Below are positions 1,617 to 5,731 of a stretch of 50,634 bases of DNA, one piece after another. The position numbers were made by a program, and so were the translations under genes. Location of the stretch: positions 1 through 50,634 of the forward strand of contig NZ_CACWVY010000012.1 in the NCBI RefSeq assembly GCF_902764455.1. The letters run 5' to 3'. Positions within the stretch are counted from its first letter, which is position 1; each line of letters opens with the position of its first letter. Source of the DNA: an uncultured Methanobrevibacter sp. GTDB taxonomy: Archaea; Methanobacteriota; Methanobacteria; Methanobacteriales; Methanobacteriaceae. Under the pieces are notes generated by a model. That model did not search any database. It saw only the letters and a list, made by a program, of their open reading frames with translations, and was not told the DNA's origin.

Positions 1617-1637
1617 AGTGCCGGCAAAGCCAGCACT
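1617..1637 (-). terminator. GC-rich hairpin after the 1650-2108 gene
   Basis: The arms AGTGCCGGC and GCCAGCACT pair around an AAA loop with one mismatch/wobble. On the minus strand the hairpin follows the stop codon by 12 bases and is followed by a T-rich stretch. It stands out in the AT-rich surroundings. Confidence 0.6.
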
Positions 1638-1649
1638 AAAAATATTTAA

Positions 1650-2108
1650 TTATTTATTTCTTCTAAATATTGTAATACCACCAGCAACAACAATCAAAAT
1701 CAATACAATGAAGATTGGATTACCAGTTGCCAACAAATTATGAAGGGCATTTCCGAGAGTATTGTTTCCGGCAGTATGATTTGTTGCATTTCCTGTAGTG
1801 TTGCCTGTTTTGTTTGCAGGAGTAGAGTTTGTTATCTCAGGAGTAGCGTTTCCTGTAGTATTGTCATTGGATATAACAGGTTCTGGATCAGTTGGAACTG
1901 TTGAACCGGAATCGCCATTGCCATTACCGTTTGTATCTGCATCACCAATAGCACCGTTGGAATTATCAGAACTGCTAGTATCCTGTGCCTGAAGAGTATC
2001 AGAACTTCCGCCTTGATCAGCGGCAACTTCTTCAGCACTTATTGCACCCACAGAACATACTAAACAGCATATTACTGCCACTAATAAAAATATTTTTAAA
2101 AAATTCAT
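1650..2108 (-). CDS. Small secreted protein with LPxTG-like C-terminal anchor
   Basis: I place the start at the ATG at 2106-2108 (MNFLKIFLLVAVICCLVC), because a GGTGAT ribosome binding site lies just upstream; the frame is open 30 bases further. The 152-residue product has a signal peptide (about 1-24), then a low-complexity region rich in Asp, Asn, Gly, Ser and Thr (about 25-120). It ends with LLATGNP, a hydrophobic segment and the tail FRRNK. That end is a sorting-signal layout like LPxTG-TM-basic tail, so the protein is probably exposed on the cell surface. The many N-x-T/S sites suggest N-glycosylation by AglB. It shares its anchor and promoter layout with the two next cassettes, but its middle part differs. 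Function unknown. Confidence 0.7.
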   Translation of the reverse strand: MNFLKIFLLVAVICCLVCSVGAISAEEVAADQGGSSDTLQAQDTSSSDNSNGAIGDADTNGNGNGDSGSTVPTDPEPVISNDNTTGNATPEITNSTPANKTGNTTGNATNHTAGNNTLGNALHNLLATGNPIFIVLILIVVAGGITIFRRNK

Positions 2109-2192
2109 TATATCACCAATAATTTGTGAATACAACAATAATCAGTTAAGACGTATTAACTGGTTATGTGAATATACTATTAAACAATCAAC

Positions 2193-2232
2193 ATATATAA
2201 ATCTTTTTGAATGTCAATATAATAAGACATTC
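2193..2232 (-). promoter_or_regulatory. TATA box with adjacent palindrome upstream of 1650-2108
   Basis: On the minus strand a TATA box (TTTATATAT, 2193-2201) is preceded by a purine-rich BRE-like stretch. Before that is an inverted repeat with arms GAATGTC (2226-2232 and 2209-2215) around 10 bases. The palindrome ends 7 bases before the TATA box. The same layout is found before the genes at 2315 and 3431, which suggests a shared regulator. Confidence 0.6.
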
Positions 2233-2279
2233 CAAAAAAAAATTAAGAAAAAATTATACAAAAAACAGGAAAATAAGAG

Positions 2280-2297
2280 GTGCCGGTCCCCCGGCAC
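2280..2297 (-). terminator. GC-rich hairpin after the 2315-2752 gene
   Basis: Perfect 7-base arms (GTGCCGG and CCGGCAC) enclose the loop TCCC, 17 bases past the stop of the minus-strand gene and followed by T-rich sequence. The local G+C is far above the surroundings. Confidence 0.65.
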
Positions 2298-2314
2298 GAT
2301 ATGGAGAAATAAGT

Positions 2315-2752
2315 TTAATTTTTTCTGATTATGCAATAACCACTTAAAAGAGTACATACACCAAGTAATATTACAATCGGATTACCGGTTGCATGTAATT
2401 TATGTGTTAAACTTGCATTGATGTTTGAATTTGAAAGGTTAGAATTTGTTGTGTTTGTCACGTTTTCACCGGCAGCGTGACCGGTTTGATTGAGCATTTT
2501 TGACTCATCGTGAGCTGCATCAACTGGAGCAACAGTTCCGTTGTGGCCGTTCTGACTTTCATTTAAGTAAGAATCCCCTCCGGCAGCATGGTGAGTATTA
2601 GCAGAAGGAAGCAATCCATCATGCCCAATATAATTTCCGCAAATACTATCTGCGCTTAAATTACCATGATCAATTGCATTAACTGCACATGCTGAAATGA
2701 TTACGCAGAAAACTGCGAATATTACGATTACATTAATTTTTTTAAGATTCAT
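2315..2752 (-). CDS. His-rich small surface protein with LPxTG-like anchor (copy 1)
   Basis: A 145-residue protein with a signal peptide (MNLKKINVIVIFAVFC, cleavage near residue 27). A middle region is rich in His, Asn, Asp and Gly, with pieces such as NTHHAAGGDSYLNESQNGHN and NQTGHAAGENVTN. It ends with LHATGNP, a hydrophobic segment and RKN. It is a clear paralogue of the gene at 3431: the signal peptides, GGDSYLNESQN, NQTGHAAGEN and the anchor all match. About ten histidines in the short mature part could bind a metal ion, but no known metal-site motif is seen. The several N-x-S/T sites suggest glycosylation. Start: ATG 2752, with GGCGGT upstream. Function unknown. Confidence 0.7.
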   Translation of the reverse strand: MNLKKINVIVIFAVFCVIISACAVNAIDHGNLSADSICGNYIGHDGLLPSANTHHAAGGDSYLNESQNGHNGTVAPVDAAHDESKMLNQTGHAAGENVTNTTNSNLSNSNINASLTHKLHATGNPIVILLGVCTLLSGYCIIRKN

Positions 2753-3148
2753 TCATACCGCCTTTGAATATTAATTTTGAAATTTGTTTTGGGCAATTGA
2801 GGAGATGAGTTTTCCTTGCACAAATAATTATATGAATACGACCATATATAAAGTTTTTCGAATGTAAGTGGTTACTTACATCTTAAAAAATTGAAAAAAG
2901 AAATTTAAAAGCTAATTTTAAAAAAATAATTAATTTAAAGATTAATAATTTAAATTCCAGAAATTTTTGTTGGAAAAACGATTAAAGATTCAAAAATTGT
3001 TTCCAGTTGACAAAATTGTTTCAACTCCATTAAATTAACCCCAATTTATAATTAAAAGATTATAAATCAGTTAAATATATATCAAACATATTAAACATGG
3101 AAAAATACATTTTTTTCATATTACAAATAAAAAGGAGGTAAAAAAACA
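2753..3148. other. Non-coding stretch between two divergent units
   Basis: Apart from the promoter and palindrome of the 2315-2752 gene, this stretch holds a plus-strand TATA-like box (TTAAATATATATC, about 3071-3083). That box could drive the short frame starting at 3149. I see no other gene. Confidence 0.45.
2844..2881 (-). promoter_or_regulatory. TATA box and perfect palindrome upstream of 2315-2752
   Basis: The minus strand shows CTTTATATATGG (2842-2853). Directly upstream is a perfect inverted repeat with arms ATGTAAGT (2862-2869) and ACTTACAT (2874-2881) around GGTT. About 90 bases of leader follow to the ATG. The position next to the BRE/TATA fits an operator or activator site. Confidence 0.65.
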
Positions 3149-3220
3149 ATGCCTACAAAACTAGAACGATTTAAAAAAAAGAAATGGAGGGTCCAAAAAA
3201 ACTCTACACTCGTGAAATAA
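3149..3220 (+). pseudogene. Very short ORF with strong ribosome binding site, probably frameshifted remnant
   Basis: A perfect GGAGGT (3134-3139) lies 9 bases before an ATG, and a TATA-like box lies about 70 bases upstream. The frame gives only 23 residues, beginning MPTKLERFKKKKW, before TAA. An A8 run sits inside it. If one base is moved in that run, the reading continues as EMEGPKKLYTREINSLT, which looks more like protein. A further open piece (VNDVILHMKKIFNHLK) follows in another frame at about 3240-3300. I therefore read it as a recently decayed small gene whose expression signals remain. A real 23-residue peptide is the other option. Family not recognised. Confidence 0.35.
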
Positions 3221-3383
3221 ATTCTCTGACATAAGCACAAAAAAGTCAATGATGTCATTCTCCATATGAAAAAGATCTTCAACCATCTAAAATTAAAATA
3301 AAACTATTTTTTAAAACAAAAAAAAATCTAAAAATTGATTAAAACATACGCCTGATTGAAATTTAAAAAAAAAGGAAATAAGG

Positions 3384-3409
3384 GCGTGCTGACAGTTAAG
3401 CCAGCACGC
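3384..3409 (-). terminator. GC-rich hairpin after the 3431-3883 gene
   Basis: The arms GCGTGCTG and CAGCACGC enclose a loop of 10 bases. On the minus strand it follows the stop codon by about 20 bases and is followed by a long T-rich run. It matches the 3' hairpins of the two neighbouring cassettes in place and composition. Confidence 0.65.
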
Positions 3410-3430
3410 AATATGGCAAAAATAATTTAA

Positions 3431-3883
3431 TTATTTTCTTCTTATAATAGCATAACCGCCAAGAACTGCAGAAACAGCTAATAATGCTACAATTGGATTA
3501 CCGGCTACAGGCAATTTGTGTGAGGAGGTTGCATTGGCAGTTTGGTTAGAAACACCAGCACCAGTTGAGTTTGTAATATTTTCACCAGCAGCATGACCAG
3601 TTTGATTAATCATTTTTGTTTCATTGTGGCCAGCGGCATGCAGAAGATCAGTTGCATTGTGGCTGTTCTGACTTTCATTTAAGTAAGAATCACCACCGGC
3701 GGCATGCTGAATTTCATCATGAGCATAATCCGGAGGAATAATCAATCCGTCATGTCCATCATGAGCTGTATAAATATCATCAGCATTTGAATTACCACTA
3801 TCAGCCGCACATACTGCACCTGCAGAAATAATTACACATACTATTGCAAGAATTACTAATACATTAATTTTTTTGAGATTCAT
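3431..3883 (-). CDS. His-rich small surface protein with LPxTG-like anchor (copy 2)
   Basis: The start is taken at the ATG at 3881-3883 (MNLKKINVLVILAIVC). The GGTGAT ribosome binding site is placed correctly for it, while the longer frame would start at a GTG inside that site. The 150-residue product has a signal peptide, then a His/Asp/Asn-rich middle (AHDGHDG, YAHDE, LHAAGHNET, NQTGHAAGEN). It ends with LPVAGNP, a hydrophobic segment and IIRRK. It is a paralogue of 2315-2752, and about 110 bases upstream of both genes are also alike, so gene and promoter were duplicated together. Probable cell-surface protein, perhaps metal-binding because of nine or so histidines (inference only). Confidence 0.7.
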   Translation of the reverse strand: MNLKKINVLVILAIVCVIISAGAVCAADSGNSNADDIYTAHDGHDGLIIPPDYAHDEIQHAAGGDSYLNESQNSHNATDLLHAAGHNETKMINQTGHAAGENITNSTGAGVSNQTANATSSHKLPVAGNPIVALLAVSAVLGGYAIIRRK

Positions 3884-3974
3884 TATTATCACCTTTTAAT
3901 ATTAATTTTGAAATTTGATTTGAGCAATTGAGGAAATGAGTGTTCTTTGCACAAATAATTATATTAAAAAGACC

Positions 3975-4012
3975 ATATATAAAGATTTTCGAATGTAAGT
4001 GCTTGCTTGCAT
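3975..4012 (-). promoter_or_regulatory. TATA box and imperfect palindrome upstream of 3431-3883
   Basis: The minus strand shows CTTTATATATGG (3973-3984). Directly upstream lies ATGTAAGT (3993-4000), four bases, then GCTTGCAT (4005-4012), the imperfect version of the palindrome before 2315-2752. The surrounding 110 bases match the other copy closely, including the leader. Confidence 0.6.
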
Positions 4013-4157: not shown

Positions 4158-4397
4158 CTATTTTGCATTTAAAATATCCTTTTCAGACAAACCAGTCAAT
4201 TTAACAGCCTCATCAATAGAATACCCATTATTAAGAAGATTCAAAGCAATTTCAAGTTTACCATCACGAATACCCTCTTTAAAACTTTCTTTAAAACCTT
4301 CTTTAAAACCTTCTTTAAAACCTTCTTTAAAACCTATTTCACGACCGCTCTTAATACCTTGATTTTTGAAATATCTTTCATTCGGATCAATTAACAT
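4158..4397 (-). CDS. Free-standing Rpn C-terminal domain (RpnS-like), 79 residues
   Basis: This short gene encodes only the C-terminal part of the Rpn protein found at 4829-5731. It starts MLIDPNERYFKNQGIK, has a run of four-residue repeats (GFKE, about four units at 24-42), and ends with the block from LEIALNLLNNGY to EKDILNAK. The ATG at 4397 has a good Shine-Dalgarno (GGAGG, 6 bases away). In bacteria this part of Rpn proteins is made separately and blocks the toxic full-length nuclease. No catalytic residues are present here. It may be a separate antitoxin gene that arose by duplication, or a truncated relic kept open by chance. The intact frame and strong ribosome binding site favour expression. 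Confidence 0.6.
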   Translation of the reverse strand: MLIDPNERYFKNQGIKSGREIGFKEGFKEGFKEGFKESFKEGIRDGKLEIALNLLNNGYSIDEAVKLTGLSEKDILNAK

Positions 4398-4516
4398 ATT
4401 ATTCCTCCACAGATAATGATAATTTTGATTGAGAAATTCAAACTAGTCATTATACTCATCCACAACATTTAAATTACAATAACAGATTGAAAAAATTAAA
4501 GATATAAAATTAAAAA

Positions 4517-4708
4517 CTATTTAGCATTTAAAATATCCTTTTCAGACAAACCAGTCAATTTAACAGCCTCATCAATAGAATACCCATTATTAAGAAGATT
4601 CAAAGCAATTTCAAGTTTACCCTCACGAATACCCTCTTCACGACCTTCCTCACGACCTTCCTTAATACCTTGATTTTTGAAGTATCTTTCTCTTGGATTT
4701 ATTAACAT
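4517..4708 (-). CDS. Free-standing Rpn C-terminal domain (RpnS-like), 63 residues
   Basis: Second isolated copy of the Rpn tail: MLINPRERYFKNQGIK, a short repeat part (GREE, about two units at 18-25, then GIREG), and the same closing block as the other copies. The ATG at 4708 follows GGGGGAAGAATAGT, which aligns with the sequence before the internal ATG of the full-length gene. The last 100 or so coding bases are nearly identical to those at 4158 and 4829, so the duplication is recent. It differs from the other copies mainly in the number of repeats, which is the part that varies in bacterial RpnS proteins. Role as antitoxin is inference. Confidence 0.6.
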   Translation of the reverse strand: MLINPRERYFKNQGIKEGREEGREEGIREGKLEIALNLLNNGYSIDEAVKLTGLSEKDILNAK

Positions 4709-4828
4709 ACTATTCTTCCCCCGATAATGATAATTTTAATCCAGAAATCCAAACACTAGCTATCATACCCATTCACTTAATTACAATTACAGATTGAAAA
4801 AATTAAAACAAAAATATAAAATTAAAAA

Positions 4829-5032
4829 CTATTTAGCATTTAAAATATCTTTTTCAGTCAAACCAGTCAATTTAACAGCCTCATCAATAGAATACCCATT
4901 ATTAAGAAGATTCAAAGCAAATTCAAGTTTAGCATCTTCACGACCTTCCTCACGACCTTCCTTAATACCTTCTTCACGACCTTCCTTAATACCTTGATTT
5001 TTGAAGTATCTTTCTCTTGGATTTATTAACAT
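4829..5032 (-). CDS. Possible internal gene for the RpnS-like C-terminal fragment (67 residues)
   Basis: Inside the full-length Rpn gene an ATG at 5030-5032 begins MLINPRERYFKNQGIK, the same start as the two separate short genes. It is preceded by GGAGAAGAATAAT, so a Shine-Dalgarno-like GGAG sits 9 bases upstream. Alignment of the three leaders shows this region is the ancestor of the leaders of the free-standing copies. Separate translation of this part is established for bacterial Rpn genes; here it is predicted from sequence only. Confidence 0.45.
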   Translation of the reverse strand: MLINPRERYFKNQGIKEGREEGIKEGREEGREDAKLEFALNLLNNGYSIDEAVKLTGLTEKDILNAK

Positions 5033-5731
5033 ATTATTCTTCTCCATATATTGATTATGTTCGTCTTCAGTTAACATATTAACGCTTAACATGTCAAACA
5101 AATATATTATTGCCATTTTTTCGTTAATATCGAATAATAACCTTTCAGAAATTTCTTCAAGTAACTTTCGTGCCCTGTTTAGAATATCAAGTTTAGATTC
5201 ATCGAAATCAGCATAAACAATTAATTGCAATGAAGCAATATCCTCATCAGTGATTTCACCATTATTATTTAATTTATCTTCAATGTTTTTAAATATATCC
5301 TTAGCTTTGAATTCCTTAAGGGAAATCATATGCATAGTATATACACAGCCTTCTTTAATTACAAAGTCTTTTTTAGTATATTCAGTTTTTTCCGCACACA
5401 ATATGTATAATTCAACATCATTATCCTTAAAAATACGTATTGAAGACACATATTGGAAAAATCTTTTGATGTCATCTTCTGTTGGAAGAAAGGTTTGACA
5501 TTCCAAAATAAGACTTATAATTTTTTCGTCGTTTTTTGCTTCTGCAACAAAGTCCAAACGGGAAATTTTCGGACCTAAACCTGTATATTCAGACATCATC
5601 ATTTTAGTGATTTTAAATGGAATTTTTACAAATTTCAAAACACCATTAGCACGTTTTTGAAGAACACTTTTGAAATAATAGTCATTATACTGAGCGTATT
5701 TCTTATCCGTAATCTGAATATTTGAAGTCAT
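4829..5731 (-). CDS. Rpn family recombination-promoting nuclease / putative transposase (PD-(D/E)XK)
   Basis: A 300-residue protein of the Rpn/YhgA-like family. The nuclease core is near the N-terminus: D60 in RLDFVAEAKND and E77-x-Q79 in ISLILECQT fit the PD-(D/E)XK pattern with ExQ. A helical middle follows (about 150-230). Then comes a C-terminal part with four-residue repeats (GREE/GIKE, about 251-266) and a helix-turn-like end (LNNGYSIDEAVKLTGL). Bacterial members are DNA endonucleases that act as toxins in phage defence and are inhibited by their separately translated C-terminal piece. An internal ATG (codon 234) lies exactly where the two short downstream genes start. The gene appears intact. 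Family is sure; a defence role here is inference. Confidence 0.82.
   Translation of the reverse strand: MTSNIQITDKKYAQYNDYYFKSVLQKRANGVLKFVKIPFKITKMMMSEYTGLGPKISRLDFVAEAKNDEKIISLILECQTFLPTEDDIKRFFQYVSSIRIFKDNDVELYILCAEKTEYTKKDFVIKEGCVYTMHMISLKEFKAKDIFKNIEDKLNNNGEITDEDIASLQLIVYADFDESKLDILNRARKLLEEISERLLFDINEKMAIIYLFDMLSVNMLTEDEHNQYMEKNNMLINPRERYFKNQGIKEGREEGIKEGREEGREDAKLEFALNLLNNGYSIDEAVKLTGLTEKDILNAK

Follow-up and report, generated by a model that had tools for sequence, protein, structure and literature searches.

The 20-bp palindrome that precedes two neighbouring secreted-protein genes in an uncultured Methanobrevibacter sp. appears to be the operator of a dispersed regulon, which extends over three genera of one archaeal family and consists mostly of secreted or surface proteins. 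A TetR-type regulator probably controls this 20-letter switch, and the reading of the palindrome as an operator regulated by TetR, with the sign of regulation left open, is given a probability of about 0.77. That the palindrome is an operator is, taken by itself, almost certain. Sequence comparison shows the operator itself, recurrent and at a fixed position, as well as the nature of its targets and its association with TetR genes, including the self-operators of outgroup TetRs. The literature searched, which covered few subscription papers and no bioRxiv preprints, contains no description of the motif or of the regulon.

The window, i.e. the whole stretch of DNA that was analysed (50,634 nucleotides), contains three gene units, all located on the minus strand, with the following features.

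1617..1637, minus strand: unit 1 3' hairpin, terminator-like
1650..2108, minus strand: unit 1 gene, 152-aa secreted protein, C-terminal ATGNPI, hydrophobic segment and RRNK
2194..2201, minus strand: unit 1 TATA box TTTATATA
2209..2232, minus strand: unit 1 inverted repeat GAATGTC-N10-GACATTC
2280..2297, minus strand: unit 2 3' hairpin, terminator-like, GTGCCGG-GGGA-CCGGCAC and then T-rich
2315..2752, minus strand: unit 2 gene, 145-aa secreted protein with signal peptide, C-terminal ATGNPI, hydrophobic segment and RKN
2845..2852, minus strand: unit 2 TATA box TTTATATA, at a fixed distance to the operator
2855..2861, minus strand: unit 2 BRE TCGAAAA, adjoining the operator without a gap
2862..2881, minus strand: unit 2 putative operator, 20-bp palindrome ATGTAAGTAACCACTTACAT
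3384..3409, minus strand: unit 3 3' hairpin, terminator-like
3431..3883, minus strand: unit 3 gene, 150-aa secreted protein, C-terminal VAGNPI, hydrophobic segment and RRK, paralogue of unit 2
3976..3983, minus strand: unit 3 TATA box TTTATATA, fixed spacing known across relatives
3986..3992, minus strand: unit 3 BRE TCGAAAA
3993..4012, minus strand: unit 3 putative operator, 20-bp palindrome ATGCAAGCAAGCACTTACAT

As the initial annotation had proposed, all three units possess a TATA box, a secreted protein and a GC-rich 3' hairpin, and an inverted repeat is present in each (2209-2232, 2862-2881 and 3993-4012). The three hairpins (-14.6, -14.7 and -19.2 kcal/mol) are each followed by a T-rich stretch. 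Alignment likewise bore out that units 2 and 3 are duplicates, promoter and leader included; both are arranged as palindrome, TCGAAAA (BRE), two bases, TTTATATA, leader, secreted protein and terminator-like hairpin. The unit 2 protein matched no Pfam or NCBIfam family above the cut-off, nor did comparison of the target proteins with NCBIfam give anything above it, while a protein search found a relative of the unit 3 protein in a Methanobrevibacter MAG. LPXTG is absent from the target proteins, which carry xATGNPI or VAGNPI instead, though the hydrophobic segment and basic tail are there. Elsewhere in the window, positions 4158-5731 hold an Rpn-family nuclease/transposase-like gene (TIGR01784, below the cut-off) and, after it, its C-terminal part twice more, as separate copies in which KEG(F/R)-type units are repeated. 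An Rfam search returned one sub-threshold match, outside the three units.

The operator consensus, ATGYAAGT-NNRY-ACTTRCAT, is joined directly to TCGAAAA-NN-TTTATATA, comprising the BRE and the TATA box, and the profile from 117 sites is ATGYAAGTRAGCACTTACATTCGAAAAACTTTATATATGG. Spacing was analysed by searching for AAGT-N4-ACTTACAT followed by TTTATA with a free gap of 1-30 nt. Nearly all of the approximately 100 sites found were in one register to the TATA box, with TATTTATA taken as an equivalent box; one match in G007 and one in G049 clearly depart from it. The operator is located directly upstream of the BRE. Between units with unrelated target genes, conservation is limited to the operator, BRE and TATA box and, weakly, the leader, and half-site variants retain the symmetry by changes on both sides (GTGCAAGT..ACTTGCAC vs ATGTAAGT..ACTTACAT). 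Regulon promoters have a BRE and a TATA box close to the consensus; the other promoters with which the BRE was compared may include regulon promoters that were missed. A conserved structured leader is not claimed, because leader folding was uneven and only slightly better than in the upstream control (mean z -1.10 vs -0.67, p = 0.006).

About 12 copies of the operator are present in the genome from which the window comes, with 11 operator-promoter matches at up to 3 mismatches and none for the reversed-pattern controls. A scan of the genus detected the operator in 46 of 67 genomes, and in the family a degenerate pattern, which also recovered the sites in G003, G010 and G044 missed by the strict first pattern, gave matches in 69 of 139 genomes belonging to 3 of 17 genera; the reversed-pattern controls had no match anywhere in the 139 genomes. 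Matches in the three genera sum to about 435, a figure that may include some sites twice, once per strand, and the highest count is 73 (G097). For units 2 and 3 a chance origin is ruled out by the 11 matches in their own genome and the 69 of 139 genomes in the family, with zero in the controls. The palindrome thus also precedes other genes, both in this genome and in many relatives; the lack of such recurrence, which the initial annotation had named as evidence against its proposal, was not observed.

The same annotation had assigned one palindrome to all three units, which holds for units 2 and 3 and does not for unit 1. The two operators scored 56.4 each against the profile, higher than any other of about 101,000 positions in the window, while the unit 1 repeat scored -5.6 (-24.3 for the palindrome part) and, judged by the profile score, is not the regulon operator. 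It has in common with the operator the centre and the ACATTC/GAATGT ends, with ACATTC beside the promoter, and differs in the core. A second regulon with a repeat of this type was considered and rejected, since the repeat has a single occurrence in the 67 genomes of the genus and the remaining matches are the main operator; an exact search for GAATGT-N6-ACATTC yielded one place only, unrelated and within a coding region. It is somewhat more likely than not that unit 1 either answers to a related but different regulator or has a decayed site. The unit 1 protein and regulon members elsewhere form one family (about 30-37% identity), which together with a genus-unique repeat sharing the centre of the operator is consistent with this explanation, but it is a single case and a 7+7 repeat could arise by chance.

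The targets of 140 sites were read by a mechanical rule. Signal-peptide-like proteins follow 77 sites (22 with a GNPI tail, 9 of VNDF type and 46 other) and short signal-peptide-like peptides follow 4 more, so that secreted or surface targets account for about 80 of the 140. A zinc-ribbon/DUF2207C pair is preceded by 11 sites, or 13 in all with two more DUF2207C genes. Other proteins follow 5 sites, two of them being the DUF2207C gene again and one of VNDF type. About 42 sites have no ORF of 60 codons; what follows them are tiny ORFs in tandem, broken genes or apparent non-coding RNAs. One site lies at an end. These figures are approximate, because a few of the 46 are probably miscalled and the 42 include broken genes. 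The conserved 60-aa zinc-ribbon protein and the gene for a DUF2207 C-terminal domain form a recurrent regulon member that looks cytoplasmic (G000:C3 (L003), L034, L044, L047, L050, L089, L098, L104, L116 and L117). The proposal of a shared regulator and a common surface function is well supported by the recurrence and by the secreted targets, except that the function is not purely a surface one: the regulon also takes in zinc-ribbon/DUF2207C operons, tandem tiny ORFs and transcripts without an ORF.

Several ORF-less units contain tandem tiny ORFs of 11-23 codons, each preceded by a strong Shine-Dalgarno sequence (L175 and L176 in G064; L017 and L014 on contigs C23 and C17 of the genome of the window; L080, L082, L084, L109 and L119). 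G064 has six near-identical copies of a cationic peptide of 16-19 aa starting with MAPTGCFSKLF, MSCLEETIKVLKEFESF is repeated in a tiny-ORF unit of the genome of the window, and the peptides MIDYWTRDLTH and MIDHWTRDLIH occur in G000 and G012. Comparison of the G064 copies gave 102 synonymous vs 118 non-synonymous codon differences; since these comparisons are not independent of each other, they suggest coding without proving it. Genus g9 has, after the TetR gene, a site that precedes about 230 nt without an ORF (L159, L161, L180 and L181), a stretch whose conserved 3' region GTGTTTCTGCATCTNTGATGTGGAT can form a hairpin and which is a candidate operator-driven small RNA.

Inspection of the genes around the sites revealed one regulator found repeatedly, a TetR-family protein, and no other regulator gene recurring there. 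The genome of the window has a copy of it at G000:C23:15125-15712. Its N-terminal helix-turn-helix matches Pfam PF00440 (TetR_N) with 38.1 bits against a cut-off of 24, and the best solved relatives among PDB profile matches are FadR-type TetR proteins. A tree of 48 TetRs separates seven outgroup members from a sister clade of 40 (support 99/99). In the outgroup (G002, G007, G030, G006, G020, G044b and G056b), where the gene next to TetR encodes an ABC2_membrane_3 protein (Pfam), the palindrome ends 1 bp before the ATG of TetR itself and overlaps its TATA box. In the sister clade, which comprises the regulon TetRs, the palindrome is found downstream of TetR instead, within about 320 bp after the stop codon in 19 of 40 cases. 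A palindrome is held by 13 of 30 TetR loci and by none of the shuffled loci. By genome, TetR and sites are associated ([[50,4],[20,32]], Fisher p = 2e-9, 106 genomes, phylogeny not controlled), and all four genomes that are TetR-positive and site-negative carry the self-operator.

A TetR of this family is not present wherever the operator is: sites occur without one in 11 genomes of at least 90% completeness, including G049 (10 sites), G116 (10) and G117 (6), so the assignment of TetR to the operator is strong and not complete. The other TetRs of the TetR-less genomes are of different kinds and not consistently beside sites; one of them, beside a radical-SAM-like gene, was rejected as their regulator, as only in G117 is it close to sites. 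In G004, G012, G054 and G061 the TetR of this family carries stop codons, and operators remain in three of these genomes. The near-complete genomes without TetR have either lost it recently or use another protein at the site.

The operator is very probably bound by the TetR-family protein, presumably as a dimer. In the outgroup form, TetR would belong to an operon with the ABC-2-type membrane protein, the operator lying on its own TATA box and reaching the start codon, as expected for a self-repressor. Across the regulon clade, this operator would be used immediately upstream of the BRE at many promoters, and the bound dimer would most likely hinder TFB/TBP until a ligand releases it. Repression is the habit of the TetR family. 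Repression rather than activation is slightly favoured here, considering the position of the self-operator and the near-consensus BRE of the regulon promoters, and the archaeal TetR that has been studied, FadRSa, represses (PMC6449355). Against simple repression, the sites are wholly upstream of the BRE and their rigid spacing suits contact with TFB/TBP.

These same features allow a reading, somewhat short of an even chance, in which the same TetR on the same operator is an activator, recruiting TFB/TBP from an exact register upstream of the BRE like GvpE or Tar (TK0271). The spacing is fixed to the base, archaeal regulators that bind upstream of the BRE act as activators, this being the stated position of TK0271 sites relative to BRE/TATA and of other archaeal activators (PMC6737238), and GvpE needs a 20-nt sequence upstream of the BRE (PMC8241225). 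However, an activator fits poorly with the near-consensus BRE and TATA box of the regulon, with the repressor position of the outgroup self-operator on the TATA box and adjoining the ATG, and with repression by FadRSa (PMC6449355).

It is unlikely that some other conserved regulator binds the operator and that TetR is only a frequent neighbour or a member of the regulon. The persistence of sites in TetR-less genomes and the broken TetR copies would agree with this, but outgroup genomes in which no regulon promoter was found still have the palindrome exactly at the TetR start, and no second regulator gene recurs at the sites. A mobile or repeat element carrying a promoter and spread by cassette copying with no regulator is very improbable: units 2 and 3 are copies including the leader, and whole cassettes occur in tandem copies in relatives, but conservation across unrelated targets is confined to the operator, BRE and TATA box (weakly the leader), the outgroup self-operators sit in a different setting, and many variants keep the symmetry with both halves changed.

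With TetR retained as the regulator, a possible, more tentative scenario is that a TetR which repressed itself within an ABC-2-type operon took on a new role in gut Methanobrevibacter. Its operator would have moved to a fixed place just upstream of the BRE at many promoters, producing a regulon that switches surface proteins together with small non-coding RNAs and tandem arrays of peptides of 11-23 aa, some of them cationic and amphipathic. A gut archaeon would in this way coordinate its surface and its peptides in one programme.

To our knowledge, the control of surface proteins in gut and rumen methanogens has not been worked out. With an operator defined, targets listed in dozens of genomes and a candidate regulator named, this question can be tested directly in vitro. 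The occurrence of the same palindrome at two promoter positions, as the outgroup self-operator and upstream of the BRE in the regulon, also offers a good case for archaeal regulatory rewiring.

The adhesin-like proteins of Methanobrevibacter ruminantium, in the passages that deal with them, are secreted as are those of the window and some have a C-terminal membrane segment, but they are large, while the window proteins are 145-152 aa with GNPI, a hydrophobic segment and a basic tail; these passages mention no operator (PMC2812497). Among bacterial TetR operators of the AcrR/TtgR/PmeR type, that of PmeR holds ACTTACATTCG, as does the right half-site here, but the half-sites face the other way and the likeness is one of letters only, a lead (PMC4538802, PMC1453763). 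GvpE of haloarchaea also depends on a 20-nt element immediately upstream of the BRE, but it resembles a leucine-zipper protein rather than TetR and acts on gas-vesicle genes (PMC8241225). Tar (TK0271) of Thermococcus kodakarensis similarly has a palindromic operator just upstream of BRE/TATA at several operons; its targets, however, are aromatic amino-acid genes, its palindrome is TGGACA-N8-TGTCCA and it was shown to activate (PMC6737238). FadRSa of Sulfolobus acidocaldarius is, like the regulator proposed here, an archaeal TetR-family protein with a (semi-)palindromic operator, but it has four genomic sites only and one local fatty-acid/lipase cluster, and most of its sites are at least 130 bp from promoters (PMC6449355), whereas the sites described here are many and dispersed, occupy one exact promoter position and mostly precede secreted proteins.
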